NCBI GenBank assembly: GCA_946414885.1
Contig: CAMKQH010000007.1
Span: forward strand, 1-64,000
Direction: 5' to 3'
Source: an uncultured Lachnospiraceae bacterium
GTDB taxonomy: Bacteria; Bacillota; Clostridia; Lachnospirales; Lachnospiraceae
DNA: 64,000 nucleotides
Shown here: positions 52,559-64,000 of the stretch, one piece after another
How the letters are laid out: the number at the start of each line of letters is the position of its first letter
Numbering within the stretch: position 1 is the stretch's first letter
Notes under the pieces: model-generated
Databases searched by the model: none
Told to the model about the DNA's origin: nothing
The model's input: the letters and a program-made list of their open reading frames with translations, nothing else
Made by a program: the position numbers and the translations under genes

Positions 52559-54928
52559 TTATTCGAACTCATATAGATTATATGCTTCACCCGCATGCGT
52601 TATGATTGCCCGGGCGTTGTTGTTATAATAGGTTCCCTCCACGTCCAGTCTGGTTCTCTCTTTGGTCTCAAGGTCAACCACGTAGATTTCGTCCTTCGCC
52701 TTATTGGCATATTCAATCACGCATTTGTCATTGAGGGGCTTCATATCGTAGACCGCCTGGTCACTTTCATAAATCACGTTCAGATTCTCGTCAAAAACCT
52801 GATTCTTCCTGTTCTGGGTGGCGATCAGGTATCTTCCGTTTGGCGATTCATATTTCAAGGCAATATACTCGTCATCCGCGCCTTCATAGGTCTTTCCGTT
52901 CATAAGGCTGACGATCACGTTGACGTTGTGCTCGCCGGATGCGTCCGTTTTGGTGATTCCTCCGCACACAAAACGGGTATCCTGCGGTAAGCCATAGGTT
53001 TCGATGGATCCAGCCGCCGTTCTGCCGCTAAGCAGCTTCATGACCGTTCCGTCACCAAAGAAAATGGCATCTGCCCCCACGTAGCTTGAGTCTCCCATCT
53101 TGAAACAATTCCGCGCGTAAAATACGTCATCAGGTCCAAACGTCTTATACGCCGTCATAAGCTCATCCGACTTGGAAGCGGCAGCGTACTTAAACCCATC
53201 CATTTCCCAGACAACGTTTAGGTCATGATCCATTGCGTAATACTTTTTCGCCCCGTCACGCACCACGATCAGCCCGGTTGTCGTAATTCCCGCATATTCG
53301 TAGTAATGATCCGCTTCCGGTTTCAGGGACAACTCATTGATCTTCTTGCTGCCGTCATAAACTTCAATTCTGTCGCCGTGATATTCCACGTAGAAATACT
53401 GGGTATTCGTTGGTCTTACGTAAACATTACCCGCCGGATCCGCAAACAAAACGTTGCCATCAAAATCCAAAACACACTGCCAGTTCATAAACTGATCAAT
53501 GCCGCAAATAATATAACCGGAACCCGGCTCGTAGATCGGGGAATTTCCCTTTACCTTCCAAAGCTCCTTCTTGTTCTCAAGGTCATAAGCCACCAGGTAT
53601 TTTACGTTATCCTCCTCTGCATCATAGACTACAACCCCGTCATGATACGTCAAAACACAATCCGAATCACGCTGCACTCTCGGGAACGTAAGGATCTCCC
53701 GATCGTCTTTCACGATGGTGACAAAGGTATTGTCCCCGTCCGTAATGCCATAATAGCCATCACCCAAAAGCTCCACGTGGGAACTTCCTGCAAATGCCAG
53801 GCGCTTCCCCTTCTCGTCAACAACTTCTTTGTTTTCCTTATCCGTGGTAACAAACGTGCTGTCAGAGCCCTCCACCGTTAATAATCCGCTGGTGAAAGCT
53901 TTTCTGAACGTAACCTTCGTGATGACTCTTTCCTCCAGCTTAGGCAAAGCTTCCCGTCCTTCTTCCTTACCTTCTTCGCCTTTGCGGTCTCCGTCTTCCT
54001 GCTTGCCTGACTGGGACTTCGAAGTGGATGCCGACGCAACCTCTCCCTCCTTGTCCGGATTCTTTGTGCCGCCAAGCTTCGGGATCACAACGATCAATGC
54101 GATCACTGCGGCAAGTGCTGCCACGCCTACAATGATCCACTTTAAGAGATTAGCTTCCGCAGCCCGGCCTGCCTTACCGGCAACGCCGGCAGCCGAATTA
54201 GCCGCTGAAGAGGCGATCGTGCCGGCCTGCATGGCATTAGCCCCGGCAAGCGCATTTGTAATGCTCCCGTAAACCGCCTCGCTCTCTGCAAAGCTGCAGC
54301 ACTTTGCGCTTTCCGAGAAGATAAGCGCCAAAATGGGTACGCCTGCAAACGAATAAAGCTTGACGCCTTTCTTTTCCTCCAGGCGAAGAATCTCTTCCTT
54401 CAGCTTTGCCCTGGATACGCTCAGGCGGTTCTTTACCGCATTCTCGTTGCATCCCATCTGCAGCGCCACTTCGCTGATGGACAAATTGCTGAAATAATAA
54501 AGCAACACCGTCTGATATTGATTAACGCTGAGAACGTCCCGCATGATTTGGAACAGGATCTCTCTTTTTTCTTCCTGCAAAACATAATCCTCAGGAAGTT
54601 GGAAATCCGTCTCCTCGTTGACCAGATCCTCCAGGATCTCGCCGTCGACCGGCGTCGGAATTCTTTTCCGATACAAATCCTTGCACTTATTCGTTGCAAT
54701 TGTCTCGATCCATGCAGGGAATCTCTCCGGAGCGTTAAGCATGGAAATACTCTTCCATGCAGTTACGTAAGCCTCCTGCACAACGTCCCTTGCATCCTCT
54801 TCATTTCCCAAAAAGCTCTTTGCCAAAAAGTAAACCCTGTTACAGGTCCCTTCGTACAGCGTGCGGAATGCACTCGCATCCCCTTCCTTTGTCATTCTTA
54901 CCAGTTCGGAATAATTCATCTCTCTCAT
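52559..54928 (-). CDS. Membrane-tethered ECF sigma factor fused to an extracellular beta-propeller-like domain
   Basis: A 789-residue single chain. Residues 1-185 are a complete ECF sigma factor: region 2 (NRVYFLAKSFLGNEEDARDV, AWIETIATNKCKD) and region 4 (SISEVALQMGCNENAVKNRL). A further hydrophobic stretch (about 191-211) and an Ala-rich linker lead to a membrane helix (about 261-284). A Lys/Glu/Ser-rich linker follows, then about 450 outside residues with repeated four-strand-like units (DGYYGITDGDNTFVTIV, KYYAMDHDLNVVWEMDGF) suggesting a WD40/PQQ-like propeller. The sigma factor is thus physically bound to its own sensor. It has its own ECF-like promoter and terminator and is a single-gene unit. 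Confidence 0.88.
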   Translation of the reverse strand: MREMNYSELVRMTKEGDASAFRTLYEGTCNRVYFLAKSFLGNEEDARDVVQEAYVTAWKSISMLNAPERFPAWIETIATNKCKDLYRKRIPTPVDGEILEDLVNEETDFQLPEDYVLQEEKREILFQIMRDVLSVNQYQTVLLYYFSNLSISEVALQMGCNENAVKNRLSVSRAKLKEEILRLEEKKGVKLYSFAGVPILALIFSESAKCCSFAESEAVYGSITNALAGANAMQAGTIASSAANSAAGVAGKAGRAAEANLLKWIIVGVAALAAVIALIVVIPKLGGTKNPDKEGEVASASTSKSQSGKQEDGDRKGEEGKEEGREALPKLEERVITKVTFRKAFTSGLLTVEGSDSTFVTTDKENKEVVDEKGKRLAFAGSSHVELLGDGYYGITDGDNTFVTIVKDDREILTFPRVQRDSDCVLTYHDGVVVYDAEEDNVKYLVAYDLENKKELWKVKGNSPIYEPGSGYIICGIDQFMNWQCVLDFDGNVLFADPAGNVYVRPTNTQYFYVEYHGDRIEVYDGSKKINELSLKPEADHYYEYAGITTTGLIVVRDGAKKYYAMDHDLNVVWEMDGFKYAAASKSDELMTAYKTFGPDDVFYARNCFKMGDSSYVGADAIFFGDGTVMKLLSGRTAAGSIETYGLPQDTRFVCGGITKTDASGEHNVNVIVSLMNGKTYEGADDEYIALKYESPNGRYLIATQNRKNQVFDENLNVIYESDQAVYDMKPLNDKCVIEYANKAKDEIYVVDLETKERTRLDVEGTYYNNNARAIITHAGEAYNLYEFE

Positions 54929-55055: not shown

Positions 55056-55568
55056 TTAGTCACTTTCCAAACCATCCAAAGCCTCTCCCATCTCCATGTC
55101 GAAAATGGTTTCCTCCACGACCTTCACGCATTCGTCTGCGTGCTTTAGGATGTCCTTTCCCCAAAAGCGGATCACGGTCCAGCCGAGGTACAAAAGTTTC
55201 TTGTTGGCCTCGTCGTCACGCCTCTTTGTGTTCGTGATCTTTTGGATCCAAAACTCCGCGTTATTGCCGCGTTCCAGCTGGGGCTTTAGGACCTCCCAAT
55301 CCTTTCCGTGAAAGAATTCGCTGTCGCAGAAAATTGCGATCTTATATTTTGTCAGAACAATGTCCGGCACTCCCGGAAGGGTCCTTACGTTCTTCCGATA
55401 GCGGTAACCCTTTGCCCATAAAGCCTTGCGGAGCTTTAGCTCAATGGAAGTGTCCTTGCTCTTGATGCGCTGCATGTTGTAGTGCCGCGCCTCTTTTGCG
55501 CTTCCCTTCTTCGCAGGGCCGGGGCATCTTTTCTCACGATTCCCCATATTCATATCCTCATCCGTCAT
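55056..55568 (-). CDS. vsr: Vsr-type very short patch repair endonuclease
   Basis: A 170-residue endonuclease of the Vsr family. Motifs: NMQRIKSKDTSIELKLRKAL, LPGVPDIVLTKYKIAIFCD with the catalytic Asp, FFHGKDW, and ITNTKRRDDEANKKLLYLGW followed by TVIRFWG. Classic Vsr nicks T:G mismatches made by deamination of 5-methylcytosine, so it normally lies beside a C5 methylase. None is here; the methyltransferase at 987-1952 is of the amino class and far away. It follows the antiporter gene by 21 bases and is probably co-transcribed with it. Confidence 0.88.
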   Translation of the reverse strand: MTDEDMNMGNREKRCPGPAKKGSAKEARHYNMQRIKSKDTSIELKLRKALWAKGYRYRKNVRTLPGVPDIVLTKYKIAIFCDSEFFHGKDWEVLKPQLERGNNAEFWIQKITNTKRRDDEANKKLLYLGWTVIRFWGKDILKHADECVKVVEETIFDMEMGEALDGLESD

Positions 55569-55589: not shown

Positions 55590-57524
55590 CTATGCCCTGA
55601 AAAGGAATCCTGCCACCAAATAGAATGCAGCTGCGATTCCCGTGATCACAAAGCTGTATCTCACGCGAACCCGAAGGACCGCATAAGGATCGCATCCTAT
55701 GGCCGTTCCAACGTTCATGCTGTCTGCGGTAAACATACAGTTCTTTTCGCCCGCAATGCCCGCGCCCGCGATGGCACCCACGCAAAGCGCGAGATTCACG
55801 CCAAGAAGGGGTGCAAAGTGTACGGCGATCGGGAAAACGATTGCGTACATGGACCAAGAGGAACCCAAGGCAACGGTCAGGAACATGGCGAGTAAAAACA
55901 TGACCATCGGGAAGATGGGACCAAACTTGCCAAATGCTTCCAGGGCGTCAACAAAGTATTCCGTCAGTTGGAGCGTGCTGAGAAGCGTGGAAAAACAAAT
56001 CGTCAAAAGGTACAAAAGAATTGCAAGCGTGGAATTTGCAATGCCCACCACCAGGTGCTCCACAAACTGCTCCGGCGTGAGCAATCCCTGCCAACAGTAG
56101 AACAAAAACATGAAGATCAGCGTCGCCGTCAGTCCTACCGCGCTGTCCACCATAAATCCCCCGGCAACGACGGAACGGATCGCCAGTGAAGTTACGGCAA
56201 GAACAAGGATCGGAAGCATGATGTTTATGATCTTTCCCCACATTTCCGGCTCATTTAAGCTCAAATACTTTTCTGAACCGTCCGGCCACAGCTTTCCGCC
56301 TTCCTTCACTCGCCTGTCGGCGTTCTTGAGCCTTTTCGTCAGGGGAAGCTTGCCAAAACAGTATAACAACATAAAGATCACTACCAAAATGGAGAAAAAG
56401 TTAAACGGAATGGACTGACAGAACAGTCCAACGGGATTCTCCTTGATCGAGGCGCTGAGCGTACCAATAACGAAAATGCCCCAAAGGGAAAGGGGGATAA
56501 AGGAGCTGAGCACCGTAGGCAACAGGCTGTAAAGAAGGGAAGTCTTCTCTCTCGGAATGGCCTGTTCCTTGGCAACGGCGTTCGTGGAATTGGCCGCGCA
56601 GGACATGTTCAGGCCGTCATCAATGCAGGTTGCCGCCATGATGCCATATGCCGTGAGCATCATTCCCCGCTGGCTTTTGACCTTGCTGTCCGCGAGTTTT
56701 TTGAAGGCCGTCACCGCGCCAGACGCCTCGATGAGCTGGACCACGCCTCCCATCAACGCCATCACGTATACCGTCCATACGTTATCATATGCCATCATGG
56801 TCTCTATCATGGCGTCAGAGTAACTGGCCGCGATGCCGTTCCGGTAAACGAGAAGTGCCGCCAGCATGCCTGAGACGATCAGGGATTCCACGGTACGCTT
56901 TGTCACAAGAACGTAGACCAGCATGAGGATCAACGGAAGCAAGAAGACCGGCGCATTCGCGTCCTTTGGCACAAAGATCCACGCCAAAACGTAAACCAAT
57001 GCAAGTATGCCGTATTGGATCACCATGCGACGCTTTGAAAGCGGCGTCTGGTTCTTCGGATGCTGCAGAATACCCTTGCGCATGCCGGACAGAGCCAGAA
57101 TCTGCGAATGTTTGCCGGAAACCTGACCGTACACGCGCTTCATCATCTCGCCGTACAGGTCCGGATGATGCGACAAAATGTCCATCATGTCATCTGCATC
57201 CAGGCGGTACACAATGGTACGTCCCAGGGAACGCACGGTGGAAAGGCGCTTTTGCTTTGACAAAACGCCGTATTCGCCGAAATATTGTCCCTCGTGCATG
57301 ATGTTGATCTGCTCGCCCTCGCGGCTTAAAACAATGGCTGTTCCAGACTCCAGGAAATACATGCAATCCGGTTCTCCGTCAATGACGCAAATGTCCTTAC
57401 CGTTCTCAAATTGCTGGCGCTTTAATTTCTTCTTGATCTCCTCTAATTCCTGCTTGTCCTCTTCACTGTCGCCTATCTTAAAAAAGTCCTGTATGAACTT
57501 GTCGTCAATCCGATTCTTGGGCAT
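55590..57524 (-). CDS. NhaC-type sodium/proton antiporter fused to a cyclic-nucleotide-binding domain
   Basis: A 644-residue protein. Residues about 20-145 form a cNMP-binding (CAP_ED) domain with CMYFLESGTAIVLSREGEQI and the phosphate-binding cassette FGEYGVLSKQKRLSTVRS, keeping the Gly-Glu pair and the Arg. From about residue 165 there are 11 or more membrane helices with NhaC features (CIDDGLNMSCAANSTNAVAK, ALGSSWSMYAIVFPIAVHFA, AIAGAGIAGEKNCMFTADSM). The fusion suggests ion transport gated by a nucleotide second messenger. A strong promoter is at 57590-57618. Confidence 0.88.
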   Translation of the reverse strand: MPKNRIDDKFIQDFFKIGDSEEDKQELEEIKKKLKRQQFENGKDICVIDGEPDCMYFLESGTAIVLSREGEQINIMHEGQYFGEYGVLSKQKRLSTVRSLGRTIVYRLDADDMMDILSHHPDLYGEMMKRVYGQVSGKHSQILALSGMRKGILQHPKNQTPLSKRRMVIQYGILALVYVLAWIFVPKDANAPVFLLPLILMLVYVLVTKRTVESLIVSGMLAALLVYRNGIAASYSDAMIETMMAYDNVWTVYVMALMGGVVQLIEASGAVTAFKKLADSKVKSQRGMMLTAYGIMAATCIDDGLNMSCAANSTNAVAKEQAIPREKTSLLYSLLPTVLSSFIPLSLWGIFVIGTLSASIKENPVGLFCQSIPFNFFSILVVIFMLLYCFGKLPLTKRLKNADRRVKEGGKLWPDGSEKYLSLNEPEMWGKIINIMLPILVLAVTSLAIRSVVAGGFMVDSAVGLTATLIFMFLFYCWQGLLTPEQFVEHLVVGIANSTLAILLYLLTICFSTLLSTLQLTEYFVDALEAFGKFGPIFPMVMFLLAMFLTVALGSSWSMYAIVFPIAVHFAPLLGVNLALCVGAIAGAGIAGEKNCMFTADSMNVGTAIGCDPYAVLRVRVRYSFVITGIAAAFYLVAGFLFRA

Positions 57525-62146: not shown

Positions 62147-62177
62147 AAAAATAGGGCCGCGACTTAAGCCGCGACCC
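62147..62177 (-). terminator. Intrinsic terminator of the pseudo-helicase gene
   Basis: GGGTCGCGGC and GTCGCGGCCC form a ten-pair stem (62154-62163 with 62168-62177) with loop TTAA. On the minus strand it is followed by TATTTTT. It lies 20 bases after the stop codon at 62197, showing that this is a real gene end. Confidence 0.9.
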
Positions 62178-62196: not shown

Positions 62197-64000
62197 TTAT
62201 TTCTTGAATGCCACTGCCTTCCGGCTGCGATAGATCGCGCCGATCAATTTCTGCGGCGCCGTAGCGTCTGCGTTATCCAACGCCAGCAAACCGATCAGTC
62301 CAGTCTTCTTTGCATCCGCAAATAATTCTCCCACGTTCGGAAGATCCACTGCGATCATGGGAACAAACAGGAATAACGTCTGCCATAGGATTGGCGCGGT
62401 CTCTTCCCTGTCTGCCTGATGGAAGTCGATCTTTTCCTTCCCCTTCTTCCAGTAGCCCCAAACCTGTGCAAGCGTTGCCAGATTGGCATTACAGCACTCT
62501 GAAGCACCGACAAACGCATGATGAAGTTCAACGGCAAGGGTAAAGAGCTTTTCCCGCTCCTTCTCATATTTCTGGCTAAACCAAGGATTCTGGGCCACCC
62601 GCTTTTCGGAAACCTTCGCGTCCTTTGACAACAGCTCCTTCACGAAATCCAGATCCAAAAGAATTCTCTGGTCTTCACCCTTTTCCTTCGACCACTTCTC
62701 CAACAGTTCCTTCCGCTCTTTCTCAACGGCCTCAAGATGGAATTTCGCCTGCTCTCTTTCTTCTTCTTTGAGCGTCATCTGCTGCTTTGCAGCGTTGATG
62801 GCCTTGGTCAGCTTCGTGATCTTGTCGGTGACGGTGGTCTGATTGTTCCGGATCGTTTCCTGCACCTCCGTCAGCTCCTGATACTGGCCGGCAAGTTCCT
62901 TCATCTTCTTCTCTGCCGCGGGAGCCTTCTCCTGGGCTTCAATTGCTTCCTTCGAGCATTGATCTGCCTGCTCCAGTACGGCATCATACTTCTTCTTCTG
63001 AAGAATCTTCATCATCGGATTAACGGAAGCACGGAGCTCTCTCTCCTTGTCAAAGCCCGTGCGGATCACGTCATTATACTTGGTCCATTCGTTCTTTGCC
63101 TGTTGGGCTGCCGCGCCAACCTCTTCCAAATGCTGGAGAAGCTCTTCATGATCGGCATTGTGCTTATCTCTCTGCTCCATCAGGGGCTTCTTCGTATTCT
63201 CGGCATTCTCAATCTCACGCTTACAGTGCTCAATTGCGGCCTCTGCTTCCTTGAGATTCTTCTGCGCAAGCTTTTCTTCCTTGTAGTTCTTGAGAAAGGC
63301 CTTCTGAAGCCCGCCAAGCTCTGCCTGAAGGTCCTGTACGACCTTTAGCTGCGCCAAGAATGCTTCCCTGGCCTTTGCATATTTCGGAAGACGGTCTCCC
63401 GCCACGTCTACCTTGCGGAACTCCTCCACTTCCGGCAACAGGACCTTCTCATAAAAGGCCTTTCGCTCTGCGTCACTGCCAAGCGTTGCCGCCAGTCTTC
63501 CCAGGGTCTTCTCATGATCCTTTAAGTCCTTGCAAAGCTTTTCCAAAGCCACACAGTCATCTGAGGAAAGCATCATGGAATAATTATTGAGTGCGTCATT
63601 CCTTAGCATGTACCACTTTGACGGATACTCCGCGTAGGCATTGTTCGTCTCCTCACCATGATAGAACTTAAAGCCCTCGAAAGCGTCGTCCGGCTTGTCA
63701 TAATTTGCAAGAAGAACCGCCCTTTCAACCACGTTGCCGGCAAGAAGCTCCTTCAAAACGGCAACCTTGTCTGCTTCCGTCTTTTCCTTTGCGGCGACAA
63801 GCCTTCCCGTCTCCTCGAATGCCACGCCTTCCCCCTTCGCAACGGAAAGATTTACGTCAATCTGTTGCCAAACGGTATTCCCGGTCTTTGCGGGCCATTT
63901 CCCCAAAGGCGCGTTCTCCAATGACAAAATCTCGTTTAAGCTCAAAAAATCAGCATCCAGATCCTCCCCGTCCAGAACCACGTTACGTCCGGGCATGGGT
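62197..64000 (-). CDS. Helicase-family protein with lost nucleotide-binding motifs (partial, cut by window edge)
   Basis: At least 600 residues; the frame is still open at the window edge, so the N-terminus is missing. Segments match a family of large SF1 (AAA_11/AAA_12, Upf1-like) helicases. VNLSVAKGEGVAFEETGRLV is normally followed by a Walker A of the GPPGTGKTT type, but here the site reads AAKEKTEADKVAVLKELL. VVERAVLLANYDKPDDAF then matches. A coiled-coil of about 250 residues follows. Near the end, LFLFVPMIAVDLPNVGELF is normally followed by a Walker B of DEAGQA type, but here it reads LALDNADATAPQ. The protein stops at AIYRSRKAVAFKK, where relatives continue with GDPLQ and the second motor domain. 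ATP hydrolysis is not expected. Confidence 0.72.
   Translation of the reverse strand, partial: PMPGRNVVLDGEDLDADFLSLNEILSLENAPLGKWPAKTGNTVWQQIDVNLSVAKGEGVAFEETGRLVAAKEKTEADKVAVLKELLAGNVVERAVLLANYDKPDDAFEGFKFYHGEETNNAYAEYPSKWYMLRNDALNNYSMMLSSDDCVALEKLCKDLKDHEKTLGRLAATLGSDAERKAFYEKVLLPEVEEFRKVDVAGDRLPKYAKAREAFLAQLKVVQDLQAELGGLQKAFLKNYKEEKLAQKNLKEAEAAIEHCKREIENAENTKKPLMEQRDKHNADHEELLQHLEEVGAAAQQAKNEWTKYNDVIRTGFDKERELRASVNPMMKILQKKKYDAVLEQADQCSKEAIEAQEKAPAAEKKMKELAGQYQELTEVQETIRNNQTTVTDKITKLTKAINAAKQQMTLKEEEREQAKFHLEAVEKERKELLEKWSKEKGEDQRILLDLDFVKELLSKDAKVSEKRVAQNPWFSQKYEKEREKLFTLAVELHHAFVGASECCNANLATLAQVWGYWKKGKEKIDFHQADREETAPILWQTLFLFVPMIAVDLPNVGELFADAKKTGLIGLLALDNADATAPQKLIGAIYRSRKAVAFKK

Follow-up and report, generated by a model that had tools for sequence, protein, structure and literature searches.

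The window analysed here, bases 1–64,000 of a 164,832-base contig, ends within a gene whose product resembles a superfamily 1 (SF1) helicase with its catalytic sequences replaced. This locus raises the question of whether such a gene is a decaying enzyme gene or encodes a conserved protein that has given up the motor, and, in the latter case, what that protein might do. The gene (contig positions 62197–64200, minus strand, 667 amino acids) starts at 64200, with GGGAGG four bases 5′ of the ATG, and its open frame runs past the window end. The first-pass annotation of the window had called the frame intact; this holds for 62197–64000, although the annotation had only 599 of the 667 residues before it. 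It had also placed a terminator 20 bases past the stop, where a hairpin of 10 pairs indeed stands. As a terminator scan of this stretch gave 5 sites against 4.1 in shuffled sequences, only the place and the strength of this hairpin are distinctive.

62154..62177, minus strand: terminator-like hairpin, 10 pairs (8 G-C), followed by TATTTTT; begins 20 bases past the pseudohelicase stop
62197..64000, minus strand: window part of the pseudohelicase gene, 599 residues and the stop; the rest continues to contig position 64200
62257..62292, minus strand: place of motif II (Walker B), replaced by LALDNADAT; residues 637–648
63526..63576, minus strand: motif Ia site, lost (intact relatives read SCNNAAVEN); residues 209–225
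63763..63798, minus strand: motif I (Walker A) site, now occupied by VAAKEKTEADKV-type sequence; residues 135–146
63847..63915, minus strand: scaffold segment LGKWP...WQQ, just before motif I, kept; residues 96–118, with 12/23 columns invariant in dead and 15/23 in intact proteins

Descent from SF1 helicases and loss of the motor

When a profile of ten homologues that share the loss (hereafter, the dead proteins) was aligned by hhalign with one built from ten helicases that are intact, the match reached a probability of 100% and an E-value of 2.5e-82 over 634 columns, with 25–669 of the dead profile aligned to 227–935 of the intact one. The intact relatives are UPF1/IGHMBP2-like SF1 helicases related to MkoC (Mokosh), which they match at E-values of 1e-56 to 1e-66; AAA_11 and AAA_12 are present in them, together with a P-loop and DEAGQA. 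Alignment with these relatives places AAKEKTEADK of the pseudohelicase where they have GPPGTGKTT (Walker A), and LALDNADAT where they have VDEAGQA (Walker B), confirming the replacement of both Walker motifs that the annotation had reported. Motifs I, Ia, Ic and II are lost, and the flanking scaffold motifs LGKWP, VERAxLLAxYxxPDDAF, PW..xY..EREKLF and GALYRxRRA are retained. The P-loop pattern was absent from all ten dead proteins, and none of them had DExxQ at the place of motif II; one member (G089) reads LALDEADAT there, keeping the D-E pair, but has no P-loop.

The second RecA-like domain is absent as well, as had been proposed. The profile alignment ends at intact position 935, at the GDP that opens motif III, and all ten dead proteins stop within 20–30 residues past motif II, without the domain of motifs III–VI. 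The loss of the Walker motifs and of the second domain was, however, only part of what had gone: the N-terminal ~225 residues of the helicase are missing, the pseudohelicase beginning at template position 227, and about 65 residues have been deleted after motif Ia. Because the P-loop, the Walker B acid, the second RecA domain and the nucleic-acid motifs are all gone, neither ATP hydrolysis nor translocation is expected from what is established about how helicases work. The sequence thus suggests a passive structural protein that would be unable to hydrolyse ATP or to unwind.

Searches with the pseudohelicase alone yielded no Pfam domain at the cut-off and nothing significant in the PDB by sequence. 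Pfam scans of the ten dead members showed no AAA_11/AAA_12 and, at E≤1, no PLD domain, and the MkoC model matched neither the dead protein (P0001) at E≤1 nor L013 and L014 at E≤0.001. Single-sequence scans of the pseudohelicase did match SMC coils (TIGR02168, E-value 1e-10; 40 bits, where the cut-off is 567) and JetC. Foldseek likewise put coiled coils at the top, Rad50 and JetC first, and not helicases. These matches, and the absence of AAA_11/AAA_12 from all ten members, would suit a mere SMC/Rad50-type coiled-coil protein whose helicase likeness is a reading error. We regard this explanation as very improbable, because the SMC matches cover essentially the coil alone, whereas the profile alignment spans head segments on both sides of it.

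The AlphaFold2 model of the G011 protein, which is 96% identical to the pseudohelicase, consists of a head plus a coil (pLDDT 82.4, pTM 0.73). This model is not independent of the homology, since intact helicases were in its alignment; a model from four dead sequences only had a pLDDT of 36.5. A second look at the structural matches found UPF1, IGHMBP2, SETX or Sen1 in 13 of 50 rows, aligned from residues 4–6 to 667. The annotation had named the lack of any structural match to SF1 helicases as evidence against its own reading; such matches are present for this model, built with intact helicases in its alignment. Coiled-coil/SMC proteins were among the matches listed from a viral structure library, and a PDB search with a mixed profile matched UPF1/NAM7/SEN1 through the intact rows of that profile. 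The hhalign E-value, and the fact that ten genomes share one pattern of loss and one end point of the protein, put the helicase kinship beyond chance. These results show that the pseudohelicase descends from MkoC-like SF1 helicases, and they bear out the proposed SF1 (AAA_11/AAA_12) scaffold with an inserted coiled coil.

Distribution, phylogeny and selection

Matches were found in 13 of the 138 genomes of the genus sample: ten have the dead form, two an intact long form (G069 and G159) and one (G133) a coil-only match, a 67-residue stretch. No intact paralogue was detected in the ten carriers at E≤0.001 (completeness of those under 90%: G078, 84%; G118, 86%; G119, 79%), and no genome of the genus holds both forms. 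The dead protein is for this reason unlikely to be a decoy of an intact paralogue on the chromosome. Among 397 genomes of the family, with at most three candidates scored per genome, 22 others matched, 15 with a P-loop and seven coil-only in short frames (386–489 amino acids); 14 of the 15 also have DE[AS]GQ, and the remaining one (G377) has a frame truncated where the retrieved sequence stops. The order sample of 392 gave 16 matching genomes, three with the dead form, all within the genus, eight with intact motifs (G042, G442, G248, G546, G590, G825, G666 and G696) and three coil-only (G254, G431 and G578). Thus, among the matches read in the 397 family and 392 order genomes (G690 and G772 left out), no dead form occurs outside the genus, where every relative whose motifs were read retains the P-loop, coil-only matches aside.

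No dead form was found on viral contigs either. The intact profile matched 16 viral loci; one single-protein query matched one contig and another none. Among 557 plasmid records, none covers 80%. One intact relative (L093) lies on a contig classed as viral, IMGVR_UViG_2531839574_000005, and its coiled-coil tip is closer to the dead family than are those of the other viral-contig rows.

In the tree, all dead proteins group together (100/100) within the intact ones, with G176 as the nearest intact protein (88/84). The dead homologues are 52–96% identical to the pseudohelicase, apart from the most divergent one, that of G119, at 33%. This G119 gene (L059, 1102–3177) has an extra C-terminal tail and adjoins a UvrD-type helicase gene. 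The frames are unbroken, with no stop, in all ten genes. Close pairs gave dN/dS values of 0.072 (G000–G011), 0.132 (G000–G089), 0.097 (G011–G089) and 0.073 (G071–G018), and values of 0.05–0.15 were obtained in each of four regions taken singly; for deeper pairs dN/dS is rough, since synonymous sites are near saturation.

We used the D-Ala-D-Ala ligase as a marker of genome relatedness. The nine genomes with ligases at 91–100% identity (G000, G089, G011, G071, G018, G138, G118, G078 and G076) all carry the dead helicase, and the next eight complete ligase matches (76–81%), as well as the fragmented G127, are without it. The nine carriers form one clade (support 100) in a ligase tree of 28 genomes, although the ligase gene, ~14 kb from the locus and syntenic in several carriers, is not a fully unlinked marker. 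G119, the tenth dead member, gave no ligase match. The pseudohelicase is therefore a clade-core gene, vertically inherited under purifying selection in the nine nearest sister species.

The gene is shortened at both ends relative to intact relatives, as a recently silenced pseudogene or an assembly error might be. Either has a negligible probability: the same architecture recurs in ten assemblies down to 33% identity, and the unbroken frames and a dN/dS of about 0.1 per region rule both out. The first-pass annotation was right that the gene is not decaying. It had named intact close homologues beside a break local to this genome as the outcome that would speak against it; instead, the homologues at 52–96% identity all lack the motifs, and no frame is broken. 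We thus have little doubt that this is the conserved pseudo-enzyme the annotation had proposed, a pseudohelicase whose catalytic motifs are lost in ten genomes and which is kept under selection.

Conservation of the coiled-coil arm

To follow where constraint lies in the two forms, we counted invariant alignment columns in four sets, namely the three nearest intact proteins, nine intact proteins, six dead lineages, and seven dead lineages with G119 added. The coil features concerned are the following.

62686..62997, minus strand: coiled coil, second helix; residues 402–505, from the AlphaFold2 model of the G011 protein
62893..63078, minus strand: distal end of the coiled coil; residues 375–436, the best-conserved 62-residue window of the dead protein over six lineages
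63028..63402, minus strand: coiled coil, first helix (antiparallel); residues 267–391, as modelled by AlphaFold2 for the G011 protein (96% identity)

The invariant columns of motif I fell from 12/12 in the three intact and 11/12 in the nine intact proteins to 2/12 in the six and 0/12 in the seven dead ones. Corresponding counts were 13/17, 9/17, 0/17 and 0/17 for motif Ia, and 11/12, 8/12, 1/12 and 1/12 for motif II; motif Ic has 2/15 in the dead proteins. The distal tip behaved in the opposite way, with 3/62 and 0/62 in the intact sets and 38/62 and 17/62 in the dead ones. Control scaffold segments differed little between the three intact and the six dead proteins (15/23 vs 12/23 and 21/42 vs 18/42). 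Mean pairwise identity of the coil was 0.25 among intact and 0.58 among dead proteins, and that of motif I was 1.00 and 0.53, respectively. The six dead lineages have diverged from one another somewhat less than the intact proteins have, which makes the direction of the shift more certain than its magnitude, and the conservation of the tip may be due in part to the smaller depth of the dead set. These results show that, in the dead clade, constraint has moved from the motor motifs to the coiled-coil tip.

The same counts bear on a clamp, a role for which the annotation had also allowed and which is possible: head and coil would still hold DNA or RNA with no need for ATP, in the manner of Deinococcus PriA. 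D. radiodurans PriA is reported to bind DNA without helicase activity (PMC4504706), and the scaffold near the nucleic-acid side is partly kept in the pseudohelicase. We nevertheless hold a nucleic-acid clamp to be improbable, as the nucleic-acid-contacting motifs Ia and Ic are lost, the second RecA domain that would complete the groove is absent, and the proteins are acidic (pI 5.2–5.7 in ten members; 5.35–8.62 for the trimmed regions of intact relatives). The C-terminal 142 residues of the pseudohelicase are basic (pI 9.06).

The membrane-protein gene, possible roles and neighbours

A gene for a membrane protein of 243 amino acids with four hydrophobic segments lies 70 bases upstream of the pseudohelicase gene on the same strand. 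It is preceded by a putative promoter, TTGCAA-17-TATAAT, the best-scoring site of the scan (10 of 12); the scan gave 7 promoter-like sites against 2.7 in shuffled sequences, a consensus match that does not by itself imply function. The terminator-like site stands after the pair. The annotation had suggested looking at the neighbours of dead homologues, and the membrane-protein gene adjoins the dead gene upstream, on the same strand, in nine of the ten genomes. The flanking gene order is common to the carriers, making one fixed locus in nine species, and only the G119 gene lies elsewhere; no counterpart of this membrane-protein gene was found in the whole G119 assembly (79% complete), beside the dead gene or away from it. 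Diverged copies without a pseudohelicase occur in G014 and, shortened, in G148. Because of this absence and these lone copies, the pairing is strong in the clade but not obligatory. Hydropathy points to three to five hydrophobic segments in these membrane proteins and to a soluble tail at the C-terminus. They matched no family at its cut-off and, in the family-wide sample of 397, gave nothing beyond weak partial matches apart from G000; their dN/dS is 0.08–0.16 in three close pairs. Between G000 and G071, the pseudohelicase is 67% and the membrane protein 50% identical, and the flanking genes 78–97%, the membrane protein thus changing faster still than the pseudohelicase.

Taken together, these observations are best explained by a conserved pseudohelicase that acts with the upstream membrane protein as a tether or scaffold, a reading to which we assign a probability of about 0.5. 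Partnership with the membrane protein is itself probable. Selection has preserved how the head packs, together with the far end of the arm. The RecA-like head would serve as a passive docking platform and the antiparallel coiled coil as the working arm, ~100–125 residues in length, or about 15–18 nm at 0.15 nm per residue, whose distal tip would be the putative binding site for a partner. The head may dock on one partner and the arm tip on another, the membrane protein being the best candidate for one of them, and the two proteins, expressed from the common putative promoter, would together make up a tether or scaffold anchored in the membrane. For this membrane-tether mechanism, we put the chances at roughly even or slightly below.

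The main competing role is in genome defence, as the annotation had considered. A decoy or sensor derived from a Mokosh-type MkoC helicase would use the inherited coil to bind a helicase of a phage or plasmid, or the target of that helicase, and would block it or trigger a membrane effector, in this case the upstream protein; abortive systems are often built with a membrane partner. The MkoC matches of the intact relatives, the occurrence of relatives on plasmids and viral contigs, and the faster evolution of the pair than of its neighbours (G000 vs G071) all speak for such a role. The dead protein itself, however, has no MkoC match at E≤1, and its fixed locus, vertically inherited in all nine nearest genomes, is unlike a mobile, patchy defence gene. 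Nor do the neighbours (antiporter, sigma factor, diguanylate cyclase and sugar genes) make an evident defence island, Vsr being the only defence-like one. A defence role was thus not borne out, and we consider it unlikely, about as much so as the clamp.

MkoC and MkoA, which we take to be COG1112-type SF1 helicases, share with the intact relatives the whole head-coil-motif II layout. The pseudohelicase differs from them in lacking the motor motifs, the second RecA domain and a direct MkoC match, and in its fixed vertical locus. It differs from the SF1B RNA/DNA helicases UPF1, IGHMBP2, SETX and Sen1 by the absence of ATP motifs, a single RecA domain and a much longer coil insertion. Like SMC, Rad50 and JetC, it would have a long antiparallel coiled coil that extends from a head of the RecA-like/ABC kind, but its head is SF1-like and without nucleotide motifs. 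RecC and AddB are SF1 helicase folds that have lost ATPase function and belong to an active nuclease-helicase as subunits, whereas the surroundings of the pseudohelicase encode no active helicase partner. We tentatively suggest, as a bolder reading that is less likely than not, that a helicase of a mobile, defence-associated family was co-opted once, stripped to its first RecA domain and its arm, and fixed in one clade as a core protein; selection would have abandoned the ATP and nucleic-acid motifs for the coiled-coil tip, and the protein would act with the upstream membrane protein as a membrane tether, no active helicase partner being present in the cell.

PriA belongs to superfamily 2 and retains two RecA domains. 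Deinococcus PriA and yeast Utp25 resemble our protein in being conserved helicase folds with lost catalytic motifs and a presumed binding-scaffold function (PMC4504706; PMC9539457). Utp25, a DEAD-box (SF2) protein, differs in superfamily and in keeping both RecA domains, and is described by its authors as only the second pseudohelicase after Deinococcus PriA (PMC9539457). In neither has constraint moved to a coiled coil. Mokosh is described as an anti-phage system, with a PLD-like domain in its proteins (PMC10952713), and is said to degrade viral transcripts (PMC11291487). Among the matches listed in literature searches on Mokosh/MkoC, COG1112 and pseudohelicases, no motor-less relative of the MkoC-like family is reported. 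What appears to be new here is a pseudohelicase cut to one RecA domain, with constraint shifted to the coiled coil. Few pseudohelicases have been proposed so far, and here the steps can be dated for a whole clade, which has intact relatives within its bacterial family, lost the motifs in one event and shows an exchange of constraint that can be measured. With only two genes, the unit allows a direct test of how a motor turns into a scaffold, and the complete absence of AAA_11/AAA_12 from ten members warns that Pfam-based scans miss such proteins.

Some neighbouring genes are worth recording in their own right. The minus-strand gene at 55590–57524 encodes a cyclic-nucleotide-binding domain fused before a Na+/H+ antiporter family domain (644 amino acids), with orthologues at 82–100% identity only in eight of the nine clade genomes and none at that level in G118. 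The Vsr mismatch endonuclease gene lies at 55056–55568 (minus strand). At 52559–54928, also on the minus strand, an ECF-type sigma factor is fused to a hydrophobic segment with a long C-terminal extension (789 amino acids in all), possibly a sigma factor carrying its own sensor. Outside the window, the frame of an ABC ATPase (L003, 13842–14915; contig 73842–74915) has some ten copies of IIEKN in its 5′ part; instead of being protein, these may belong to a repeat upstream of the coding sequence that happens to be in frame.
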